From: Natronomonas marina
Lineage (GTDB): Archaea; Halobacteriota; Halobacteria; Halobacteriales; Haloarculaceae
Direction of reading: 5' to 3'
Length of the DNA: 64,000 bases
Assembly: GCF_024298905.1 (NCBI RefSeq)
Contig: NZ_CP101154.1
Span: forward strand, 1,054,001 to 1,118,000
Below are positions 36,226 to 38,165 of this stretch, piece by piece. Under the pieces are notes generated by a model. That model made no database searches. It was not told where the DNA came from and worked only from the letters and a program-made list of their open reading frames with translations. Each line of letters begins with the position of its first letter. The first letter of the stretch is position 1. Made by a program: the position numbers and the translations under genes.

Positions 36226-36269
36226 GTCCGAACGCGTAGCGTTTTCACCGACCGGTGCCGAGGGCGGGT

Positions 36270-36833
36270 ATGGACGACGCGGACGCCGACGACGGCCTCG
36301 CCTGGGAGACGCTCGCCTCCGAAACCGACTACACCTGCCCCGGATTCGACGTCGTGCGCGACGACGTCCGTCTGCCGGACGGCACCGAGACCGACTTCCA
36401 CTACGTCTCCGAACCGCCCTCCGTCGTCGTGCTGCCCTTCACGCCGGACGGCGACGTCGTCGTCATCGAGGAGTGGCGACAGGCCGTCGACCGGGTCAAC
36501 TACGGGCTGCCGGCCGGCGGCCTCGAGAGCGAGGACGCCGACCTGCGCTCGGCGGCCCGCCGCGAGCTGGCCGAGGAGACCGGCTACGAGGCCGGCGCCG
36601 TCGAGGCCCTCGCGACCTACGAGCCCACGAACGGCCTCTTCGACTCGGTGTTCCACTACGTCGTCGCCCGCGGCTGTGAGCCGACCGGCCAGCAGGACCT
36701 CGACCACAACGAGTCCATCCGGGTCGGCACGACGACGTTCCCCGCCCTGCGGGAGCGAGCCGTGGCCGGCGAGTTGCGGGACGGCCGCTCGGCGCTCGGA
36801 ATCCTCCAGTACGCGCTGTCCCGCGGCGACTAG
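36270..36833 (+). CDS. Nudix hydrolase (ADP-ribose pyrophosphatase-like)
   Basis: This 187-residue protein is taken from ATG 36270; a GTG five codons earlier is possible. The Nudix box spans GGLESEDADLRSAARREL and AEETGY (G-x5-E-x7-REL-x-EE-x-GY), complete in all metal-binding Glu residues. VVVIEEWRQAVDRVNYGLPAG before it is typical of ADP-ribose pyrophosphatases, which hydrolyse ADP-ribose or related nucleotide sugars. It is convergent with the SDR gene at 36946; an inverted repeat fills the gap. Confidence 0.87.
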   Translation: MDDADADDGLAWETLASETDYTCPGFDVVRDDVRLPDGTETDFHYVSEPPSVVVLPFTPDGDVVVIEEWRQAVDRVNYGLPAGGLESEDADLRSAARRELAEETGYEAGAVEALATYEPTNGLFDSVFHYVVARGCEPTGQQDLDHNESIRVGTTTFPALRERAVAGELRDGRSALGILQYALSRGD

Positions 36834-36836
36834 CTC

Positions 36837-36946
36837 ATACTGCCGGCTGTAACTATCTAAGCCAGTGGTGGCGGAAACCCGACTGTACAGAACGGCTACT
36901 GTCGAACATCACGAAACGGCCTTCACGTAATTACAGCCGGCAGTAT
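36837..36946. repeat. 16-bp inverted repeat between convergent stops
   Basis: ATACTGCCGGCTGTAA at 36837-36852 and its exact reverse complement at 36931-36946 are separated by 78 bases. The left arm begins three bases after the Nudix stop; the right arm ends on the first base of the SDR stop. The enclosed stretch has no open frame. It could be a two-way terminator, a small non-autonomous element or a regulator-binding repeat. Confidence 0.75.
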
Positions 36947-38043
36947 CACGTCATCGCGGCGTCGTCGATTTCGGGGTGCTCGCGGTAGAACTCGACGAGG
37001 TTCTCGGCGTACTCCTCGAACCGCGGGCACTCGATGCCGGAGCCCTCCAGATCCTCGAGGGCGTTCGAGCAGTCGAAACTGGCCCCCCAGGTCTGGAACT
37101 CGAAGCCGCCGCTCTTGACCAGTTCGTGCTCGGGGTCCAGCGACTCCAGTAGCCCGCGGACGATTCCCTTCGGGTACGGCGGGACGAAGGTGTGTTTCTT
37201 GCCCGCCGCCTCCCCGAGCGTCTTGATGAGTTCGACCGTCGAGGGCGGGTCGGGGTCCGCGAGGTGGTACACCTTCCCCTCGGATTCGTCGATGCCGCTC
37301 AGGTAGCCGATGGCGTCGACCACGTAGTCGCGGGGGACGACGTTGAACTCCGCGTCGCCCGCGCCGCGCGGCGCCGGCACGACGGCGTAGTCGCCCTGGT
37401 CGAGCAGGGTCTCGACGAAGGCGTAAGGACCGTCGTACTTCTGTGTCTCGCCGGTCTCGCTGTCGCCGACGGCGGCGCCCGGCCGGTAGATGGTGGTCGG
37501 TATCTCGTCCATCCGCTCCTGGACGAGTACCTCCGCGCCGTGCTTCGTCGACTCGTAGTAGTTGCCGAACTTCTGGCCCTCCAGCAGCATCTCCTCGGTG
37601 AACCGGCCCTCGTAGAGACCGGAGACGACGACGGTGCTGACGTAGTGCAAGCGGTCGACGTCGGCGCCCTCGGCGAAGTCGAGGACGTGTCGCGTCCCCT
37701 CGATGTTGACCTGCTTGCCCGGTTCCCGGTCCATCGTCAGGTCGTAGATGGCCGCCAGGTGGTAGACCTCGAGGCTGTCGGCCTGCAACTCGTCGTAGGC
37801 GTCGCCGAGACCGAGGTCGCCCTCGGTGATGTCGCCCTCGACCAGTCGGACGCGGTCGGCCACCGCCTCGTCGTCGCCCTCGGCGTCGGCCGCTATCTCG
37901 TCGACTCGCGTCTCGGCCTCCTCGCGGTACTTCGACTGTATCAGACACGTCACCGTCGTCTCGGCGTCGTGCCGTTCGAGGAGTCGCTCGACCAGCGCCG
38001 AACCGAGGAACCCGGGGAACCCGGTGAGGAACACCGTCGTCAT
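36946..38043 (-). CDS. Extended SDR, fatty acyl-CoA/thioester reductase-like
   Basis: This 365-residue protein is taken from ATG 38041-38043 (MTTVFLTGFPGFLGSALVER). The NAD(P) loop is GFPGFLG. VYHLAAIYDLTMD, VNIEGTRHVLDFA and YYESTKHGAEVLVQE (YxxxK) follow the pattern of the male-sterility/NAD-binding-4 group, which contains fatty acyl-CoA reductases and thioester reductase domains. TTIYRPGAAVGDSETGETQK agrees. It may reduce an acyl thioester or act on an isoprenoid-linked substrate. Specificity unknown. Confidence 0.78.
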   Translation of the reverse strand: MTTVFLTGFPGFLGSALVERLLERHDAETTVTCLIQSKYREEAETRVDEIAADAEGDDEAVADRVRLVEGDITEGDLGLGDAYDELQADSLEVYHLAAIYDLTMDREPGKQVNIEGTRHVLDFAEGADVDRLHYVSTVVVSGLYEGRFTEEMLLEGQKFGNYYESTKHGAEVLVQERMDEIPTTIYRPGAAVGDSETGETQKYDGPYAFVETLLDQGDYAVVPAPRGAGDAEFNVVPRDYVVDAIGYLSGIDESEGKVYHLADPDPPSTVELIKTLGEAAGKKHTFVPPYPKGIVRGLLESLDPEHELVKSGGFEFQTWGASFDCSNALEDLEGSGIECPRFEEYAENLVEFYREHPEIDDAAMT

Positions 38044-38165
38044 GCGAACCGACAACACTCCCCGGCGACGTATACGTTGTGCCCCTGTTTCGAGGGGGCG
38101 TTAATACGGCCCCGGCGCTACCGGGACGGGAACCGATTTACGCCGGGCGGTCGATGAATCGAGGC

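Follow-up and report, generated by a model that had tools for sequence, protein, structure and literature searches.

The closest published haloarchaeal elements that we found are the small mobile repeats (SMRs) of Haloquadratum walsbyi. The SMRs are described as being about 110 bp long (SMR-A) or down to 80 bp, with terminal inverted repeats (TIRs) unlike those of known transposons and no target duplication; SMR-A is stated to prefer PATE and IS605-type targets (PMC3119063). Searching the open-access literature for MITEs inserted at stop codons, or for related repeats of haloarchaea, we obtained nothing relevant besides that paper (PMC3119063). A literature search by sequence gave only unrelated papers among the matches listed. 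Prokaryotic MITEs are short and non-coding, possess TIRs, duplicate their target, and occur in several copies with empty sites in relatives; the repeat described here is alike in all these respects. A 3-bp TNA target duplication is known from the IS1031 group of the IS5 family.

We analyzed a stretch of 64,000 nucleotides from Natronomonas marina (contig NZ_CP101154.1, positions 1,054,001 to 1,118,000), hereafter called the window. Two 16-base arms ATACTGCCGGCTGTAA, at 36837-36852 on the plus strand and at 36931-36946 on the minus strand, are exact complements. Allowing up to three mismatches, the ATACTGCCGGCTGTAA pattern has two sites only in the window, and not one of 100 shuffles matched it twice. 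When the window was scanned for inverted repeats of 14 nt or more within 250 bp, 15 pairs came up, the 36837/36946 pair being the first listed. The inverted repeat reported in the initial annotation is thus real and not a product of chance. We conclude with high confidence that it is a non-autonomous, MITE-like transposable element inserted at TNA with a 3-bp duplication; movement itself was not observed. The wording "MITE-like" is kept because the search for a parent was limited.

The length of the repeat, given earlier as 16 bp, needed a small correction. Fifteen base pairs are the TIR of the element. The sixteenth, an outermost A/T pair, was contributed by the duplicated TCA target and matches because the targets are TNA. 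Since the N of the flanking triplets matches directly, the triplet is the duplicated target, so the element is bounded at 36838-36945 and its target is TCA. The features of the locus are as follows.

36255..36833, plus strand: NUDIX-domain gene (ORF; Pfam PF00293, E 2e-13), its TAG one base before the target
36835..36837, no strand: left target-duplication copy TCA, from the sequence and the family-wide TNA rule
36838..36945, no strand: very probable MITE-like element of 108 bp, with 15-bp TIRs inside TNA direct repeats and four further two-armed copies elsewhere in the genome
36838..36852, plus strand: left terminal inverted repeat TACTGCCGGCTGTAA, fully complementary to the right arm
36853..36930, no strand: interior of 78 bp, its own folding unremarkable (z +0.45 and +0.98)
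36931..36945, minus strand: right terminal inverted repeat, complement of the left arm
36946..36948, no strand: right target-duplication copy TCA, the stop TGA of the minus-strand gene (end of ORF 36946..38058, minus)
36946..38058, minus strand: convergent NAD-binding epimerase/reductase-like gene (ORF; Pfam PF07993, E 1.1e-46, and PF01370, E 2.9e-15)

The placement of the repeat between two convergent stops had been described correctly. The arm at 36837 begins three bases past the NUDIX stop TAG (36831-36833), and the last base of the right arm, 36946, is the lowest-numbered position of the minus-strand gene's stop (36946-36948, TCA on the plus strand). The 108-bp element has no transposase gene, as no ORF of at least 60 aa is confined within it. 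The spacer (36853-36930) had been said to contain no open frame. This holds for five of the six frames, each of which has a stop, and fails for one stop-free plus-strand frame; nothing there suggests coding. An Rfam search of 36700-37100 returned no match.

Searching the 4.0-Mb genome for the 16-mer, we found eight exact and two one-mismatch occurrences, which make five pairs. The sequence is not unique to this place, and the refuting condition set in the initial annotation, a unique 16-mer, therefore fails. The five two-armed copies lie at C1:426706, C1:1090837 (the window copy), C1:1971879, C1:2542147, and C1:3352797. The copy at C1:1971879 has shrunk to 42 bp, and the three other long copies are 91-97% identical to the window copy over the whole element. 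Partial matches occur at C1:400501 and C1:3743302.

The 15-mer TACTGCCGGCTGTAA also stands at the ends of elements in other genera. Of 146 genomes in the same family, 45 matched an 18-base end pattern (at most one mismatch). This is an undercount: genome G097 had no match there yet gave 50 in a class-wide search for TNA plus the 15-mer. In the class-wide draw, TNA plus the exact 15-mer was present in 37 of 391 genomes, 30 of those 37 belonging to the same family. Among viral contigs, 34 have the exact 15-mer and none has a two-armed element of 40-130 bp; phage records gave no match. Plasmid records yielded no hit to a 116-base query from the window and 12 hits to a 78-bp element query.

We assembled 192 distinct elements, each with two arms (at most five mismatches in total), a length of 40-130 bp, and flanks of 60 bp or more, with duplicates removed by flank comparison. 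These copies are uneven in origin and not independent; they include 97 supplied by the genome-contig scan and 36 by the single genome G001. Within the 40-130 bp bound, which limits any statement on length, 139 copies are 78 bp long, 21 are 77 bp, and 12 are 108 bp. A scan extended to 4500 bp, requiring TNA duplication and made without de-duplication, peaked again at 78, 77, and 108 bp. The window interior has an identity of 0.40-0.60 to other 108-bp subfamilies. Across these subfamilies, interiors have diverged to 0.31-0.60 identity (shuffled mean 0.29) with the length unchanged.

We also observed a second small repeat family of about 78 bp with ends TACGGTCGGTTGTA, often with TNA duplication (L021 1486-1645; L113 77-155; L098 2345-2423). 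A related set with TACGGTCGGTTGTA ends comprises 28 rows, which include main-family copies; of the 28, 21 are 77-79 bp long and 18 have matched TNA. In the L021 copy of the TACGGTCGGTTGTA family, a main-family element is nested inside at TAA. Separately, a one-armed remnant on the plasmid pLC1Hm-01 (159322-159339; L391 12323-12340) has its right end adjoining the stop of a minus-strand gene, and its left arm was not recognised.

Identical 3-bp flanks are present at 160 of the 192 elements, and at 159 the flanks are TNA in direct orientation with matching N (TGA 69, TCA 62, TAA 14, TTA 14), leaving 33 elements without a matched TNA pair. TNA duplication at 159 of 192 copies is a signature of transposition. 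TNA, in all four of its forms, is a stop codon on one strand. One duplicate has decayed in 20 elements. Ten of these elements lie where a gene ends, and each of the ten has kept the stop copy intact. Because of this 10/10 retention, the gene is seen to use the duplicate as its stop, under selection on the stop copy.

Empty sites were found in relatives at the window locus and at two other loci. In the congener G117, the NUDIX and epimerase genes meet end to end and no element lies between them; the window flanks are adjacent in this one of 19 congeners, and adjacency was not found in the other 18. At the C1:3352797 copy, the flanks lie 5-10 bp apart in the congeners G124, G127, G129, and G133, and the empty site was confirmed base by base in G124, G127, and G129. 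By alignment, the empty-site stop in G117, G124, and G127 is TAG, and the pre-insertion TGA at these sites is presumed. The third case comes from Haloarcula plasmids. In H. hispanica pHH400, the element directly follows the TGA of an M48 protease gene, and H. marismortui pNG700 and H. sinaiiensis pHsi388 have the same TGA without the element, reading ...CCTGA followed by ACG. The same TGA is visible in the empty site in this Haloarcula case only, with the right-hand intergenic sequence diverged. Further empty-site searches gave nothing usable. In summary, the similar-interior copies, the family-wide TNA repeats, and the empty sites together bear out the earlier suggestion of a small non-autonomous element that settled in a safe place.

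The M48 protease stop is occupied differently in CBA1115 (96% identical over the matched stretch), where a clearly different element follows the TGA; the stop may have been hit twice, or the local sequence replaced. Two Haloarcula plasmids with closely similar flanking genes (L350 and L387) thus have strongly different elements at this stop, possibly through repeated insertion. At the L148 and L397 junctions, the TAG stops of the convergent genes in congeners seem to meet or to share a CTAG, and the window's genome has TGA and an insertion there.

The relation to stop codons was tested on 142 insertions at reconstructed empty sites, after leaving out the 33 elements without identical TNA and 17 with less than 500 bp of flank. 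Exactly on the stop of a called gene lie 61 of the 142 copies, compared with 181 of 2316 non-coding control TNA; the training loci of the gene-calling codon model included a few bacterial contigs with chance matches. A test free of the gene caller placed 59/142 copies at stops versus 78/1812 TNA within 250 bp (odds ratio 15.8), and by class 51/132 of the 78-bp and 8/10 of the 108-bp elements, the latter being the class of the window copy. In the window's own genome, all five copies are at gene stops as judged by ORFs, one of which is only 70 aa long. In RefSeq annotation, the stop is the duplication at four of five named plasmid loci (the exception is H. mukohataei JP60), and on the Halomicrobium plasmid pLC1Hm-01, whose gene table is incomplete, three of eight two-armed elements abut an annotated stop. 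Sites holding copies are strongly enriched in stop codons. The remaining 81 of the 142 testable copies are not at stops, and 15 were called inside coding sequence.

This excess may reflect targeting, selection, or both. If insertion occurred at any TNA, most of which lie in genes or promoters, and the survivors gathered at harmless places, selection only could produce the association, and we give this explanation an even chance. It agrees with the coding share, since 5017 of 7354 control TNA lie inside called coding sequence as against 15/142 insertions, and with the selection visible on the stop copy in the decayed pairs. However, the excess persists between convergent genes, where 28/39 copies and 85/335 controls are at the stop (odds ratio 7.5, p 1.7e-8), and also when the CTNAG context is matched (26/49 versus 20/102). 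It also persists against TNA lying 1-30 bp downstream: 61 copies are at the stop and 13 downstream, with 181 and 192 for the non-coding controls. This downstream comparison leans toward more than gene avoidance.

For the MITE-like element, we propose the following route of insertion. A putative transposase acting in trans would recognise the TACTGCCGGCTGTAA ends and insert the element through a 3-bp staggered cut in TNA, the cut being presumed and the 3-bp duplication observed, so that one TNA copy would be left on each side. In the window, the target was TCA, which is the TGA stop of the minus-strand gene and is separated by one base from the NUDIX TAG. The duplication restored a complete minus-strand stop at the right edge of the element, so that neither reading frame was damaged. 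The placement between stops follows from the target, TNA being a stop codon on one strand. A simple target rule in this way accounts for a placement that seemed designed, and the 3′ end of a gene is a low-cost place for insertion, since the duplicated 3-bp target is itself a stop codon. The family offers a testable case of how mobile DNA reaches safe sites in gene-dense genomes. It also alters the sequence after the stop of many haloarchaeal genes, which bears on 3′-UTR and terminator mapping and on annotation. A bolder idea, which we hold to be rather unlikely, is that the copies represent a haloarchaeal transposon superfamily with a novel transposase and lengths of about 78 and 108 bp, for which the TNA target would make stop codons natural places to land and whose transposition complex would be directed to gene ends beyond the effect of selection, regenerating stops. 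If this were true, the 78- and 108-bp lengths, approximately three helical turns apart, would be held despite diverged interiors.

The repeat could also have been kept as a bidirectional transcription terminator or an RNA-processing hairpin between convergent genes. Folded as RNA, the whole element forms a stem that is strong on both strands (z -3.9 and -4.3), as this explanation would have it, but the stem is owing to the ends, and a long stem is expected from terminal repeats anyway. Covariation in the central hairpin of the 78-bp class also speaks for a folded function: among 46 cluster representatives, with relatedness only partly controlled, 40 both-change cells were counted against a shuffle mean of 8.9, slid controls gave 4-8, and none of 500 shuffles reached 40. 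The interiors of the 108-bp class, in contrast, fold like shuffles in six of seven members folded singly, including the window copy on both strands, the seventh being L167 (z -2.5). Moreover, relatives lack the element at the same sites, and 25 of 142 copies (22 by another classing) have divergent neighbours, an arrangement that calls for no terminator. The terminator reading thus finds little support, and we regard it as improbable. As an observation in its own right, the covarying central hairpin across 78-bp subfamilies (e.g. L101 4135-4212) suggests selection on the palindrome, or homogenisation.

A protein-bound boundary, raised in the initial annotation, or an operator with a regulator dyad would be compatible with the conserved 15-bp inverted motif. 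Against it stand the direct TNA duplications, the similar interiors, the empty sites, and the occurrence of copies where unrelated genes end. Divergent and tandem intergenic regions hold copies as well, and relatives manage without the element. We consider such a boundary or operator barely credible.

Returning to the MITE-like element, we looked for an autonomous partner with matching ends and found none in the sequence and families covered by this limited search. PF13359 was absent from all 146 genomes. The only perfectly ended large element (G001:C1:2844057-2845547, corresponding to L101 2058-3548; 1491 bp) was rejected as a partner, as it is an IS inside a 78-bp copy. It holds an IS4-family transposase (NCBIfam), and the IS, which we take to be ISH8-type, is bounded by ends of its own and a 10-bp duplication CTTTACGAAC, thereby mimicking a large autonomous copy. 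With IS ends that differ from the element ends, the element does not qualify as an ISH8-type IS4 derivative; the 92% relative of the G001 IS in the window's genome is another such IS only. Scanning 2.0 Mb for TAC-ended pairs 700-2600 bp apart inside TNA duplications, we obtained seven rows, one being the G001 IS4. The other six were discarded as parents: their longest frames are acetyltransferase, PIN-domain, or FAD-binding, or have no Pfam match (L136 and L299, two L299 rows sharing one frame). Arm-like sites 1.9 kb apart at S-layer gene ends in pHH400, and a similar pair in a CBA1115 plasmid, were taken as chance.

Comparing with the known systems, the IS1031 group is alike in its TNA duplication and unlike in its domain: PF13586, presumably the domain of that group, was found in none of 11 element-bearing genomes, the window's genome included. 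The SMRs resemble the present family in length, TIRs, and haloarchaeal host, and, as described, are set apart by the TNA duplication and the gene-end or intergenic sites seen here (PMC3119063). With respect to the SMR target preference, 61 of 142 copies in our set are at gene stops, and a few nested copies exist. The traits of a MITE are found at the window locus, namely 15-bp perfect TIRs, a TCA/TCA duplication, dispersed similar copies, and no transposase gene of its own. Unlike the described prokaryotic MITEs, the family came without a detected parent transposon with the same ends, and many of its duplications double as stop codons. In summary, MITEs as a kind are already known; what is unusual in this family is the missing parent, the narrow lengths, and a target that regenerates the stop codon.
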